Source: Bacteroidia bacterium (GTDB lineage: Bacteria; Bacteroidota; Bacteroidia; CAILMK01; JBBDIG01). Taken from it: a stretch of 42,967 nt of DNA. A model generated the notes under the pieces. It did no database searches and was not told the DNA's origin. It saw only the letters and a list, made by a program, of their open reading frames with translations. A program made the translations under genes and the position numbers. Positions 13,735 through 37,907 of this stretch are shown piece by piece (within the stretch, counting starts at the first letter, position 1; every line of letters begins with the position of its first letter). The stretch is from the NCBI GenBank assembly GCA_040880525.1, contig JBBDIG010000013.1, positions 1 through 42,967 of the forward strand, given 5' to 3'.

Positions 13735-13808
13735 GGACCCGTAGCTCAACCGGATAGAGCACCTGACTACGGATCAGGAGGTTTGGGGTTCGAATCCCTT
13801 CGGGTTCA
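13735..13808 (+). tRNA. tRNA-Arg (anticodon ACG)
   Basis: A full cloverleaf can be folded. The acceptor is GGACCCG/CGGGTTC with one G-U, discriminator A. The D arm is GCTC/GAGC. The anticodon stem is CCTGA/TCAGG with loop CTACGGA and anticodon ACG at 13769-13771, and the T loop is TTCGAAT with a GGGG/CCCT stem. The 3' CCA is not encoded (CAT follows), as is usual in Bacteroidota. Wobble A34 would be deaminated to inosine, reading CGU, CGC and CGA. Confidence 0.95.
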
Positions 13809-13853: not shown

Positions 13854-13919
13854 AGGTGCCGCTGCCGCGCATGTCCTTCGCTTTTTCTATCGTGATAAAA
13901 ACTCTTTAGGCGGCAAAAG

Positions 13920-13960
13920 ATCAGTAACACTGTCCTTCAGGGCGGGGTAAGAACAAGCCT
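13920..13960 (-). repeat. MITE-like repeat, partial copy (arm C)
   Basis: Starts ATCAGT and continues AACACTGTCCTTCAGGGCGG, then GGTAAGAACAAGCC. It matches, position for position with a few changes, the arms of the 153-bp inverted repeat at 28593-28745 and the half-copy at 37831-37907. It ends exactly at the stop of the hicB remnant. Confidence 0.6.
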
Positions 13961-14169
13961 TATTTTTTCACCTTATCTGAAATTGCTTGCTTCACAAATT
14001 TATTTAAAGAAAGCCCGGATCCCAAAGCCCTTCTCATCGCCTTTTGATGCAGTTCAGGCATTTTTCGTACGTTAAATGAACCCCTATAACCTTTCCCGGG
14101 ATCCTTATCTTACGCACTGAAAGAAACCGTGGTAATGTAGTTTTTACAGGTAAGTGAATTCTTTTTCAT
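13960..14169 (-). pseudogene. hicB-like antitoxin remnant with the middle deleted
   Basis: From ATG 14169 the minus strand reads MKKNSLTCKNYITTVSFSA, then a stop (TAA). In the same frame it continues DKDPGKGYRGSFNVRKMPEL, then HQKAMRRALGSGLSLNKFVK and QAISDKVKK, with a TAA ending at 13960. The first 19 residues match the start of HicB antitoxins (K-Y-x-V-x-FSA). The end matches the HicB ribbon-helix-helix (GSFNVR-PELH-KA-SLNKFV-AI). About 60 middle residues of a normal 110-130 aa HicB are missing and the join carries a stop. No hicA was found upstream, although a weak trace cannot be excluded. This is a dead toxin-antitoxin locus. Confidence 0.6.
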
Positions 14170-27477: not shown

Positions 27478-28500
27478 ATGGGAATGTTCGATTTTTTTGT
27501 ACAGGAGTTGGCAATTGACCTCGGAACGGCCAATACCCTCATTATATATAAAGACCAGGTGGTGGTGGATGAACCCTCCATCATTGCGAAAAACCGCATG
27601 ACGGCAGAGGTGGTGGCCATTGGCAGCCAGGCGATGCAGATGCACGGGAAAACCCACGAGAACATCAAAACCATCCGCCCGCTGAAGGATGGGGTAATCG
27701 CAGATTTTGAGGCGGCAGAGCAGATGCTGCGCGGCATGATAAACATGATAAACAAGCGCAACCGCTTTTTCGCGCCCCACCTGCGCATGGTCATCTGCAT
27801 TCCTTCCGGGATTACGGAGGTGGAGAAACGTGCGGTAAAAGACTCTGCCGAACGGGCCGGCAGCAAGGAAGTCTACCTGATCCATGAGCCAATGGCAGCA
27901 GCAATCGGTATCGGCATTGACGTGGAAGAGCCAGTGGGCAACATGGTGATTGACATTGGAGGCGGTACTACCGAAATTGCGGTAATTGCCCTGGGTGGCA
28001 TCGTATGCGACCAGTCCATCCGAATTGCCGGTGATGAATTCACAAACGACATTGCTGAATATATGCGCAGGGAGCACAACATATTGATTGGAGAACGCTC
28101 TGCAGAAAAGATCAAAATAGAAGTGGGGGCCGCGCTGCCGGAACTGGAGAACCCGCCCCCGGATTTCTCTATAAATGGCCGCGACCTTATGACGGGCATT
28201 CCAAAGTCCGTAACCGTGAGCTACAGCGAAATTGCCCATGCGCTGGATAAGTCCATAGCAAAAATAGAAGAGGCTATTTTGAAAGCGCTGGAAATTACAC
28301 CCCCGGAACTCTCAGCCGACATTTACCAAACCGGCCTTTACCTCACCGGTGGAGGCGCCCTGCTCCGCGGCCTTGATAAACGCATCAGCAAAAAGACCAA
28401 GCTGCCGGTTTACGTAGCCGAAGATCCCCTGCGCGCAGTAGTCCGCGGTACCGGCATCGCCCTGAAGAATATCCATCGATTCAAGTTCCTGATGACGTAG
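27478..28500 (+). CDS. mreB: Rod-shape determining actin homologue MreB
   Basis: 340 aa. It has the full actin-like ATPase fold: phosphate 1 LAIDLGTANTLI, connecting PSGITEVEKRAV, phosphate 2 VIDIGGGTTEIAVI, and adenosine TGGGALLRGLDK. It polymerises under the membrane to guide cell-wall elongation with MreC, MreD, PBP2 and RodA. It is in one unit with purH (9-bp gap). In other Bacteroidota mreC-mreD-mrdA-rodA normally follow; here there is a repeat element and then unrelated genes, so the rest of the elongasome must be elsewhere or absent. Confidence 0.97.
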   Translation: MGMFDFFVQELAIDLGTANTLIIYKDQVVVDEPSIIAKNRMTAEVVAIGSQAMQMHGKTHENIKTIRPLKDGVIADFEAAEQMLRGMINMINKRNRFFAPHLRMVICIPSGITEVEKRAVKDSAERAGSKEVYLIHEPMAAAIGIGIDVEEPVGNMVIDIGGGTTEIAVIALGGIVCDQSIRIAGDEFTNDIAEYMRREHNILIGERSAEKIKIEVGAALPELENPPPDFSINGRDLMTGIPKSVTVSYSEIAHALDKSIAKIEEAILKALEITPPELSADIYQTGLYLTGGGALLRGLDKRISKKTKLPVYVAEDPLRAVVRGTGIALKNIHRFKFLMT

Positions 28501-28592
28501 GGGAGTGGGTGGGCCGCCCTGGGTAGCCATGCTTTGGCTTCGAGGCTCTCTGTCGCAAGCGTTCGTTTGTGATTTCCAGGCACCACTCTTCG

Positions 28593-28745
28593 ATCAGTAA
28601 CTCCGTCCTTCAGGGCGGAGGAAAATGCTCCAAACCCCTTGCAGGGCTTTAGCTCTTTCCGGCAAACCCGAGGGTACAAAAAGGGCTGAAGCCCTTAGGT
28701 AAAGATGGCTCATTTTACCCTGCCCTAAAGGTCAGGGCCACTGAT
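28593..28745. repeat. MITE-like imperfect inverted repeat after mreB
   Basis: 153 bp with perfect ATCAGT/ACTGAT ends. The two arms match through several blocks: CCTTCAGGGCGG against CCTTTAGGGCAGGG, then AAAATG in both, then GGCTTTAGCTCTTT against GGCTTCAGCCCTTTT. They face each other around a central region CCGGCAAACCCGAGGGTAC. Half-copies occur at 13920-13960 and 37831-37907. It encodes nothing and is the size and shape of a small non-autonomous element or a REP pair (BIME). Target-site duplications are not clear. Confidence 0.65.
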
Positions 28746-29201
28746 GTTTCGGGGTCCTGAAATGAAAGAGTCATGTGGAAGACATGAGGAAAACCTCACG
28801 CCAGATTGGGGGAATGTAAATGCTGCGAAGACGGGTGCTCTTAAAGGGCTTCCCTGTTTTAGGCTTTCCATCATTTGGAACAGGGAAATCTGGAGTTGTA
28901 GCGGCTCATTCATAGGTTTGTTTTTCTCTTAAAACCAAAACATTCCTTAATAATCCAAATGGATGTTTTTCTATTCACGCTGAATATCAGCAAAGAAAGC
29001 AATTGCATAAAATAACTTTAGCAATTTTTGCCATTTTTAATACTCCACATTGTTGGTTTTCAGATAAAACTTCCGGAAAATATTGAACTTTCATTGAATT
29101 TGCAATTTCTGTAAAAAAGTCAGGTACTTGCCTTAAAACTTAGTTTTCATACATCTTTATGTCGCTGTTCATTTGTGAGTAAACTTTAAAAATGAACAGT
29201 T
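28746..29201 (+). other. Intergenic region after the inverted repeat
   Basis: No gene is supported. An 8-bp inverted repeat TCCCTGTT/AACAGGGA (about 28852-28884) could fold, and the last 250 bp are AT-rich and probably hold the promoter of the next gene. Short open frames at 28744-28932 (plus) and 28725-28913 (minus) have no coding character. Confidence 0.4.
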
Positions 29202-30326
29202 ATGAAAACTTCTATCAAATTCCTGATCAAAGGCTTCTTCACTATCTCTCTGCTAGTTTGTATGAAGTCGAATGCTCAAACCCAACCTGTATTAGGTGTA
29301 CTCAACATTGAGGCAAATGGCGGAATGCTTGACGAGCAAAGTGCCGGCAACCTGGTGCGGTTGGAAATCGAAAAAACCGGCTTATATGCAGTGGTTGACA
29401 AGCACGATCTTGCCACTTATTTCGAAAGAGATACAACCTATACACAAGCCACCTGCCTCGGAATGAATTGCCTGATTGCAGTTGGAAAAGGGGTAAACGC
29501 TGATAAAATGATCGGTGGCGCCATCGAAAAGTTTGGTGACAAGATTATTATTTCGCTGCGGCTAATAAATGTAAGTGCCGGAGGCATTGAGAAGGTGCAA
29601 ATTGATGAATACTTATATTTACCGGAGAGTATTCAGGAAATGGTTCAGGTGAGCGTTCAGAAACTGTTTGGACTGCCCTATAACACTGATGTGGCTTCCA
29701 AGCTCTCGCTGATCACAGAATACGAAAGCGAAATCAACAATCCCGGACAAACCCGGCTGGTACTCAATGGTCCGCGTACAGGAATTTCCTTTATTGCAGG
29801 CGAGGCAGCCAATCGTTTGATGGCGCCTAAGAGCGAGGGTGGTTTTGATGGCTATCCGTTCATGTTCGTGTTTGGCTATCAGCAGGAAATCCAGTATTTG
29901 AATTCCGGAGCTTTTCAGGCTCTTTTCGAAATCATTCCGGCTATATCAGGAATGGATCAAGGACTATTTATACCAAGTCTCAGCCTCCTCAATGGTTTTC
30001 GTAATAACTACAATGGTTGGGAGTTTGGTTTCGGGCCACACTTCACGTTAAATAGAATTGCCGAAGGTTTTCATTATCAAGGCAAATGGATATTAAAAAG
30101 GGACTACAATAAGGAAAAACACGGTGATGTTGAATTTGTAAAAAACACTGACATACGGGGGTTCCCGGGTTTACATTCTGCCTTTGTATTTGCCCTGGGA
30201 AAGAGCTTTAAATCAGGGAGGGTAAATATCCCACTTAACCTCTATGTCATTCCGGGGAAAAAGTCCCAGCGACTTGGGTTGATAATGGGCTTTAATTCAA
30301 AAAAGACTGACAAACCGGAAAAGTAA
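29202..30326 (+). CDS. Exported protein with a CsgG/FlgO-like N-terminal domain
   Basis: 374 aa with a signal peptide ending SNAQ. Residues 30-165 resemble the TolB-N/CsgG/FlgO/LpoB-type fold: LGVLNIEA, LVRLEIEKTGLYAVVDKHDL, then a Cys pair (CLGMNCLIAVGKGVNADKMI), then IGGAIEKFGDKIIISLRLI. The rest (about 200-374) is rich in alternating aromatic beta strands that could insert in or rest on the outer membrane. Such proteins often form periplasmic or outer-membrane assembly factors. It opens a run of unassigned envelope genes. The function is not known. Confidence 0.65.
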   Translation: MKTSIKFLIKGFFTISLLVCMKSNAQTQPVLGVLNIEANGGMLDEQSAGNLVRLEIEKTGLYAVVDKHDLATYFERDTTYTQATCLGMNCLIAVGKGVNADKMIGGAIEKFGDKIIISLRLINVSAGGIEKVQIDEYLYLPESIQEMVQVSVQKLFGLPYNTDVASKLSLITEYESEINNPGQTRLVLNGPRTGISFIAGEAANRLMAPKSEGGFDGYPFMFVFGYQQEIQYLNSGAFQALFEIIPAISGMDQGLFIPSLSLLNGFRNNYNGWEFGFGPHFTLNRIAEGFHYQGKWILKRDYNKEKHGDVEFVKNTDIRGFPGLHSAFVFALGKSFKSGRVNIPLNLYVIPGKKSQRLGLIMGFNSKKTDKPEK

Positions 30327-36553: not shown

Positions 36554-37726
36554 TTAATTAAGCCTTTCAATCACTCCCGCAATTCCCTGCCCTCCACCGA
36601 TGCAGGCGGTTACCAAACCAAATTTCTGATTCCTGCGCCTCAATTCATTAATGATGCTTATCGAGAGCTTGGCACCGGTACAACCCAATGGATGGCCGAG
36701 GGCGATGGCACCACCGTTTACATTTACGATCTCAGGGTTCAGGCCCGCCTCACGAATTACTGCAAGGGACTGGGCAGCAAAGGCTTCATTCAATTCCACG
36801 AGGTTGATATCCGAAATGCTCAATCCTGCCTGCTTCAGCGCTTTCGGGATAGCATTCACCGGGCCTATGCCCATCACGCGCGGATCCACACCGACAGCCG
36901 CACAACTTACCAGCCGGGCCACCGGTTCCAGCTTCAGTTCTTTTACCATTTTTTCGCTCATCACCAGCACGAAAGCTGCGCCATCAGAGGTCTGCGAGGA
37001 ATTTCCGGCCGTTACCGAACCGCCTGCTGCAAAGACGGGCTTCAGTTTGGAAAGCACCTCCAGCGAAGTATCCGGGCGCGGCCCCTCGTCCGTATCTACT
37101 GTGAAATTGCGGGTTTTGCGTTTTCCCTCGGCCACATATACATCCTCAATTTCCACCGGAACTATTTCATCTTTATATCGTCCTTCCTTTATGGCTTTCA
37201 GCGCTTTCTGATGGCTTTGATAAGAAAATTCATCCTGGTCCTCCCGACTCACTTTGTAGTCTTTTGCCACTTCCTCAGCCGTTAATCCCATGCCCAGGTA
37301 GTAATGCGGATTTTCCTTCGCCACCTCGTAGTTGGGAACCGTCTTCCAGCCCACCGTAGGAACCAGGCTCATGCTTTCTGTGCCGCCAGCAATGATGCAG
37401 TCCGCCATGCCCATTTTTATCTTGGCCGTAGCAATAGCGATGGTCTCTAATCCGGAGCCGCAATAGCGATTGACCGTCATGCCCGGCACATGCTCCGGAA
37501 GGCTCATGAGCGCGATCATCCTCCCGATCTGCAGGCCCTGTTCTGCTTCCGGTACGGCATTGCCTACAATCAGATCATCCACTCTTTGCGGGTCCAGTTC
37601 AGGCGTTTGTTCCAGCAAATGCCGGATTATATCGCGCGCCATATTATCGGGTCTGTAAAACCTGAAACCGCCTTTACCAGCCTTGCCAACCGCTGTTCTG
37701 AATCCTTTTATTATGAATGCGTCCAT
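36554..37726 (-). CDS. Acetyl-CoA C-acyltransferase (thiolase)
   Basis: 390 aa. It has the acyl-acceptor cysteine in NRYCGSGLE (Cys89), the NEAFAAQSLAV motif, GHPLGCTGAK (His345) and the base Cys375 in CIGGGQG, a complete thiolase active site. It cleaves 3-ketoacyl-CoA to acetyl-CoA in beta-oxidation, or the reverse in synthesis. It is the first gene of the unit with the acyl-CoA dehydrogenase. The hydratase/3-hydroxyacyl-CoA dehydrogenase gene that usually precedes it in Bacteroidota is not here; a repeat half-copy is upstream instead. Confidence 0.94.
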   Translation of the reverse strand: MDAFIIKGFRTAVGKAGKGGFRFYRPDNMARDIIRHLLEQTPELDPQRVDDLIVGNAVPEAEQGLQIGRMIALMSLPEHVPGMTVNRYCGSGLETIAIATAKIKMGMADCIIAGGTESMSLVPTVGWKTVPNYEVAKENPHYYLGMGLTAEEVAKDYKVSREDQDEFSYQSHQKALKAIKEGRYKDEIVPVEIEDVYVAEGKRKTRNFTVDTDEGPRPDTSLEVLSKLKPVFAAGGSVTAGNSSQTSDGAAFVLVMSEKMVKELKLEPVARLVSCAAVGVDPRVMGIGPVNAIPKALKQAGLSISDINLVELNEAFAAQSLAVIREAGLNPEIVNVNGGAIALGHPLGCTGAKLSISIINELRRRNQKFGLVTACIGGGQGIAGVIERLN

Positions 37727-37830
37727 AAGTTATCGTATTTAATTTCAGGGAAAATTCTCAAATAGAGATTCCCCATTGTGTTTAAATGAACGTGAAAAGA
37801 ATTGGTTTGATCTGCCCACAATATCCAATG

Positions 37831-37907
37831 GTACGAAGAGGGCTGAAGCCTTGAGGAAAAGAGGGCTCGTTTTTACCCTGCCCTGAATGAAGGACAGGGC
37901 TATTGAA
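37831..37907 (+). repeat. MITE-like repeat, half-copy (arm B)
   Basis: Begins GTACGAAGAGGGCTGAAGCC, then GGCTCGTTTTTACCCTGCCC and TGAATGAAGGACAGGGC. It aligns with the right arm of the 28593-28745 element (GTACAAAAAGGGCTGAAGCC, TTTTACCCTGCCCT, CAGGGC). Only one arm is present. It lies 105 bp upstream of the thiolase start codon. Confidence 0.6.

Follow-up and report, generated by a model that had tools for sequence, protein, structure and literature searches.

A 153-bp palindrome behind mreB in a Bacteroidia genome is probably a non-autonomous IS200-like element with double-hairpin ends

We analyzed a 42,967-nt stretch of a Bacteroidia bacterium genome (the window; contig JBBDIG010000013.1 of assembly GCA_040880525.1, forward strand, positions 1 to 42,967), in which a 153-bp imperfect palindrome lies behind mreB. 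This palindrome is probably a non-autonomous IS200-like element whose ends each carry two hairpins. The anatomy of the element, its tie to a single group of TnpA transposases of subclass 1.2, and the occurrence of gene-bearing and gene-less versions with shared hairpins in two other genomes were established directly. The surprising part lies outside the window: this TnpA group has ends that the published description of its subclass generally denies. Below, C denotes a contig of the host assembly (C13 being that of the window), G a genome of the class set, and L a locus.

Results

Anatomy of the element and its full copies

The element spans 28593-28745 (no strand assigned), beginning with ATCAGT (28593-28598) and ending with ACTGAT (28740-28745), as originally predicted. 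Its position after mreB was likewise correct: this gene, identified by Pfam MreB_Mbl (8e-130), ends at 28500, and the element starts 92 nt further on. The left outer end (28593-28620, plus strand) consists of a foot, ATCAGTAA, and hairpin A (28601-28620; CTCCGTCC-TTCA-GGGCGGAG). The left inner palindrome B, AGGGCTTTAGCTCT (28643-28656, no strand assigned), has one stem mismatch relative to the copies on C52 and C16. The right inner palindrome B', AAGGGCTGAAGCCCTT (28681-28696, no strand assigned), is followed by the right outer end (28718-28745, minus strand), comprising hairpin A' (28718-28737), its foot, and the terminal ACTGAT. In the host family, hairpin A is 20 nt long with up to 8 pairs and a 4-nt loop of TTCA or TTTA; the foot preceding it is ATCARTAG or a near form in most copies; and B is AGGGCTTTAGCCCT, with the core GGCTTTAGCC.

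Compared with dinucleotide shuffles, the element folded well both as DNA (z -2.98; 1 of 200 shuffles equal) and as RNA (z -4.66; 0 of 200 equal). Within the window, AAGGGCTGAAGCCCTT matched six times against 0.59 expected; four of these rows lie in the element or in the arm at 37.8 kb, two of them being one place read on both strands, and two lie elsewhere. Similarly, CCGTCCTTCAGGGCGG matched four times against 0.18 expected, with three matches inside the family. A repeat finder run on the element gave no output, as the arms are imperfect.

The genome-wide search called for in the original prediction was performed on the host assembly (3,802,942 bases in 60 contigs, 98.4% complete). It yielded 10 places with E values from 1e-78 to 0.04 (11 rows, one being a counted place on the opposite strand), so the arms do recur elsewhere in the genome. 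Three places hold full copies (the window, C52:43143, and C16:16763), all ordered A-B-B'-A' in the alignment. The other two full copies are 79-80% identical to that of the window and 94% identical to each other. The seven partial copies, whose matches are 77-93% identical to the element, comprise a right end at each of C26:48799 and C13:37830, and one end at C15:767, C13:13919, C51:60917, and two places on C14. By open reading frame (ORF) position, all 10 copies are intergenic. Moreover, AGGGCTNNAGCCCT occurs at 10 genome positions, all inside family copies; the reversed control gave none. Among 11 distinct host A arms that were not chosen for pairing (an identical arm was merged and an insertion-bearing one excluded), two stem pairs have changed on both sides. 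Shuffles reached the number of paired cells in 9 of 500 cases; the covariation score and the number of doubly changed cells were each reached in 2 of 500.

Transposases bracketed by the same ends

A DNA search of 149 genomes with the element, in which the best five candidates per genome were scored, recovered the host and one weak match in G014. Given these sparse matches, relatives were sought through the transposase and the B pattern. In a collection covering 84,980 species, the left-end pattern found nine stretches, spread over six genomes; their titles name metagenome-assembled genomes of Bacteroidetes, Bacteroidia, Bacteroidota, Ignavibacteriae, Marinilabiliaceae, or Balneolaceae. A search of the six genomes for Y1 transposases gave 39 matches, of which 30 were taken as loci. 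The strict B motif was present at three of these, L091, L096, and L102, each encoding a TnpA of about 145 residues with B and then A arranged outward, on both sides at L091 and L102 and clearly on one side at L096; L104 was added as B-flanked using a looser motif. The A letters at L091, L096, and L102 differ from those of the window family. Thus, the transposase with matching ends that the original prediction had proposed to look for was found in other genomes as a Y1/HUH TnpA bracketed by the same A-B...B'-A' order, the match residing in the layout and the B core.

The bracketed TnpAs carry Y---Q--HH, the signature of TnpA_Y1 subclass 1.2 in the consulted portion of a 2018 survey (PMC6006769), and on this sequence evidence they are single-domain Y1/HUH proteins of that subclass. 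The TnpAs of L102, L120, and L144 pass the NCBIfam IS200/IS605 model and fall below the NCBIfam cut-off for REP transposases (26-34 vs 80 bits; REP, repetitive extragenic palindrome). The nearest sequences of solved structure are transposases (E 1e-4 to 7e-4), ISHp608 among them; the 2xm3 group we take to be ISDra2.

Association of the B hairpin with one TnpA group

Relatives of the L102 TnpA occur in 153 of 395 class genomes at E<=1e-20, the host included. The 30 best were used as test loci. A B core lay within 400 nt of the gene at 29 of the 30, against 0 of 29 loci of relatives of a REP-associated tyrosine transposase (RAYT) found on C15; because the 30 are the best relatives of a TnpA already known to be B-flanked, the 29/30 is no rate for subclass 1.2. 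Using the strict motif, B was found upstream at 26 loci, B' downstream at 21, and both at 18; the opposite-orientation motif occurred upstream at 8 and downstream at 2. Both B copies and A hairpins were present at 21 loci, and at 11 of these the tnpA stop codon lies within the B' core. Upstream and downstream A hairpins of the same gene were more alike than hairpins paired across loci (0.63, n=21, vs 0.45, n=420; 0 of 1000 permutations), L096 being excluded as no hairpin was found on one of its sides. A tree built from 46 TnpAs placed the B-flanked proteins on one side of a 34-row branch (22 flanked on both sides, 11 on one, 1 on none); its support, 91/93, is under the 95 mark, and midpoint rooting was a drawing aid alone. 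Clustering of the labels "both" and "none" exceeded all 500 shuffles; that of "one side" did not (37/500).

Genome counts, with the host excluded, gave the same association. Among the 57 genomes with a close TnpA (E<=1e-40), 12 had at least three AGGGCTNNAGCCCT palindromes and 21 at least one; among the 337 without, the figures were 4 and 42. The central dinucleotide was left free in these counts, so that they include some other palindromes (G295 has AGGGCTTAAGCCCT at least twice). The gene-less arrangement B-N8-38-B' was found in 36 of 395 class genomes, host included, and the reversed pattern in none. This pattern misses the window copy, which has one B mismatch, its host matches being on C15, C16, and C52. 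With the host again excluded, it occurred in 22 of the 57 genomes that have a TnpA match at E<=1e-40 and in 13 of the other 337 (p 2e-12); at E<=1e-20 the counts were 28 of 152 and 7 of 242.

Of 30 such mini loci, 29 are intergenic by ORF position. Their 60 sides were compared with 1360 random stretches: a good A hairpin, with at least 7 pairs, was present on 35 of the former and in 32 of the latter. The feet recur, and in 17 of these 35 arms the foot ends in ATTG. Across genomes, seven of eight A-stem pairs have changed on both sides, in a set of 20 arms chosen for pairing.

Gene-bearing and gene-less versions in one genome

G155 contains one 604-bp element with TnpA, and four gene-less ones were fetched from it; G055 contains one of 590 bp and six gene-less ones. 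The A hairpins of both gene-bearing elements are CCACGACCTTTAGGTCGTGG. The gene-less elements, 125-147 bp long, have the same A, sometimes with one base changed, and the same B. Nine of the ten could be parsed; one G155 mini-element was off pattern and was excluded. A G155 mini-element with a different A is that at L199. Spacers are about 20 nt and nearly constant in length. Spacers and middles were 0.31-0.55 identical among copies vs 0.22-0.43 when shuffled. The hairpins were 0.96-1.00 identical, partly by construction as the search used the A sequence and the parsing an A/B-like pattern, so it is the spacer values that are informative. In the host family too, spacers have diverged more than B.

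Mobility and target sites

One G155 element lies between convergent ORFs, and the same pair of ORFs is kept without an element in the congeners G238, G306, and G184. Target-site duplications, as expected of the miniature inverted-repeat transposable element (MITE) originally proposed, were not detected in 16 elements: the mean was 2.25 vs 2.20 for mismatched flanks, with 931 of 2000 permutations as high. Elements of the IS200/IS605 type likewise lack target duplication, and the result would fit single-strand transposition of the IS200/IS605 or REP-like kind.

State of the family in the host

The suggestion that the family is active or recently active was not borne out: full copies are only 79-94% identical, partial copies make up seven of the ten places, and the assembly yielded no transposase bracketed by such ends. 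Based on this divergence, and on the sole subclass-1.2 transposase of the host lying outside the B-flanked group with other palindromes around it, the element appears to be an old relict whose transposase has been lost. The original prediction thus stands insofar as it described a small mobile family without a transposase gene, and not as regards recent activity or target duplications.

The sole subclass-1.2 gene just mentioned, at C19:94513 (L012), is intact; its surroundings contain repeated GCTACGTAG palindromes and a run of N. Its stop codon is overlapped by one of these palindromes, giving the same layout in other letters. Two further host Y1 genes are each present in duplicate, at C48:51222 and 51849 (627 bp apart) and at C29:1285 and 4270 (2,985 bp apart), the two copies in each pair encoding identical or almost identical proteins.

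Partial copies and neighboring repeats

The arm predicted at 13920-13960 is real and adjoins a HicB fragment (13960-14109, minus strand; Pfam HicB, 5.9e-12), but it is shorter than claimed: it is a solitary end of one hairpin at 13919-13947 (plus strand), with hairpin A alone at 13928-13947. The arm predicted at 37831-37907 was recovered as a right half, B' plus A', at 37830-37907 (plus strand), in which the A' loop is longer by 4 bases. It lies 104 nt upstream of a minus-strand ORF (36554-37726) that we, like the original prediction, take to be a thiolase gene. From their sequence, both pieces are most likely partial copies of the same ends as the window element. A tRNA gene at 13735-13808 precedes the solitary end by about 110 bp. 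On C14, a 618-residue ORF lies between two left halves in the same orientation (C14:140636-142788), which could be chance or a composite arrangement. A locus in G014 (C4:24687-24753; L047) has the order B-A-A'-B' with the A feet facing, the reverse of that in the window.

Two other repeats adjoin the element. Just 5' of it, at 28547-28581, is a second palindromic repeat, CGCAAGCG...CGCTTGTG, also present at C56:11099-11133 and on both sides of the decayed RAYT gene of C15 (about 62-81 and 652-672); it may be that RAYT's own repeat. On the 3' side, at 28779-28810, is a third repeated module (around GAGGAAAACCTC), found again at C14:142822-142853 beside a single end.

Discussion

Alternative explanations

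The inverted ends, the length of about 125-160 bp, and the lack of an internal transposase gene would equally describe a conventional MITE, mobilized by a DDE transposase in double-stranded form and duplicating its target site. We consider this highly improbable, as no duplication signal was found over 16 elements and the transposase inside matching ends is of the Y1/HUH type, Y1 being the only transposase family searched. It is also unlikely that the palindrome is a structured RNA or terminator kept behind mreB for an RNA function, with the other repeats representing the same regulator. The strong RNA fold, the paired stem changes, and the intergenic position are all as this explanation would have it. 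However, no known structured RNA was recognized: no Rfam family reached its gathering threshold, and the sole match at E<=1 scored 18.7 bits vs a cut-off of 47. A promoter and terminator scan around the element found none (0.8 terminator-like sites were expected in 28400-29250), and a transposase gene lies within the same arrangement in other genomes. A secondary effect of the element on mRNA may nevertheless exist.

The remaining alternative assigns the arms, as REPs, to the decayed, subclass-2.6-like RAYT on C15, which would make the window element a REPIN of that RAYT, a doublet of inverted REPs. The Y1 remnant of this gene (C15:352-534) lies about 200 bp from a family end (C15:767-798), and GTAG occurs within the feet of some copies. 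Yet among the 29 related RAYT loci, none had a B core within 400 nt or a CARTAG-CTTCAGG end; a CTTCAGG hairpin is present at L088 alone, which lacks such a foot. No class-2 RAYT flanked by the same repeat was found among these relatives, and the C15 gene is itself flanked on both sides by another palindrome, CGCAAGCGTCCGCTTGTG. The C15 RAYT was therefore dropped as the cognate transposase, its relatives lacking such ends. Other RAYT subclasses were sampled only through the 30 Y1 loci of six genomes, of which L091, L096, and L102 alone had the strict B motif. Copy number, at 10 places in 3.8 Mb, is low for REPs, a soft criterion: more than 100 copies per genome are usual according to the part of PMC2817692 consulted, and 20-100 or fewer are also allowed in that of PMC3733652. 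Overall, we regard a REPIN of this RAYT as very unlikely.

Several observations weigh against an IS200-like origin, besides the selected nature of the 30 test loci. At those loci, B was upstream alone in eight cases, downstream alone in three, and on neither side in one; among 15 less selected subclass-1.2 loci (from the 30 of six genomes), only four had both B copies and 11 did not. Of 35 mini-element genomes other than the host, seven had no TnpA at E<=1e-20, and no A hairpin of at least 7 pairs was found on 25 of the 60 mini-locus sides. For the host A arms, neither the pair count nor the pair-type count exceeded that of shuffles (218/500 and 442/500). Nowhere in the DNA searched did a gene-bearing element carry the A letters of the window family, the 98.4%-complete, 60-contig host assembly gave no transposase with such ends, and the sole subclass-1.2 TnpA found in the host is outside the B-flanked group and flanked by other palindromes. 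The near-unrelated spacers within one genome are unlike the trace expected of recent internal gene loss. Finally, an exact empty site was not obtained, as the intergenic DNA of the congeners does not align with that of G155, and 2 of the 16 elements (L056 and L058) have AT-rich palindromic borders indistinguishable from short duplications.

Relation to known systems

The closest known transposases are those of the IS200/IS605 family and TnpA_Y1 subclass 1.2 (PMC6006769), with which the group shares a Y1/HUH TnpA of about 148 residues, Y---Q--HH, and hairpins near the ends. In the consulted portion of that survey, subclass 1.2 generally lacks terminal hairpins, whereas the group described here has two inverted hairpins per end and gene-less copies. 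The palindrome-associated transposable elements (PATEs) of Haloquadratum (PMC3119063, partial text) are also gene-less IS605-type derivatives with near-terminal palindromes and no target duplication; they are described there as having no terminal inverted repeats, unlike the elements reported here, which have inverted ends with two hairpins each.

REPs and REPINs with RAYTs, as presented in the parts of PMC3116915 and PMC3733652 consulted, resemble these elements in being inverted hairpin doublets in extragenic DNA, in the GTAG-like foot of some copies, and in having hairpins better kept than spacers. The elements described here differ in that TnpA is below the REP-transposase cut-off, the gene lies inside the same ends, the copy number is low, and the last four foot bases are ATTG in about half of the arms (17/35). 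TIRtrons (PMC3733652, partial text) are tyrosine transposase genes with long terminal inverted repeats (TIRs), some of them double palindromes; some of these TIRs are partly self-complementary and form repeat families. Their transposases, the TIRYTs, probably correspond to subclass 2.1 according to the consulted part of PMC6006769. The present protein group is another one, the comparison with TIRtrons being one of protein class.

Proposed mechanism and implications

The window element would represent both ends of an IS200-like insertion sequence minus its gene. A subclass-1.2-like TnpA acting in trans on single-stranded DNA would recognize the hairpins and cleave at the foot or immediately beside it, and the element would thereby move between genes without target duplication, as is thought for IS200/IS605 and REP elements. 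By analogy with these systems, we infer the enzymology and the division of roles between the A and B hairpins. Recognition may be in two parts, with B common to the transposase group and A occurring in several covarying types that recur per genome. A and B look as if they may have been maintained or copied as separate units, the spacers having diverged.

More broadly, we see an even chance that one Y1 group of subclass 1.2, presumably of Bacteroidota, represents true insertion sequences, about 600 bp long and with two hairpins at each end, and is the source of widespread four-hairpin mini-elements of 125-160 bp to which two-part recognition may apply. In a literature search, we recognized no open-access paper describing ends for TnpA_Y1 subclass 1.2. 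The present results define ends and a likely mobile unit for this subclass, and identify its non-autonomous relatives. With the ends and the unit in hand, its mobility becomes directly testable. The system, with one conserved and one variable hairpin per end, is suited to studying how HUH enzymes read hairpins. Short palindromes in such genomes are easily classified as MITEs, terminators, or REPs, yet they may be the footprints of one group of HUH transposases.
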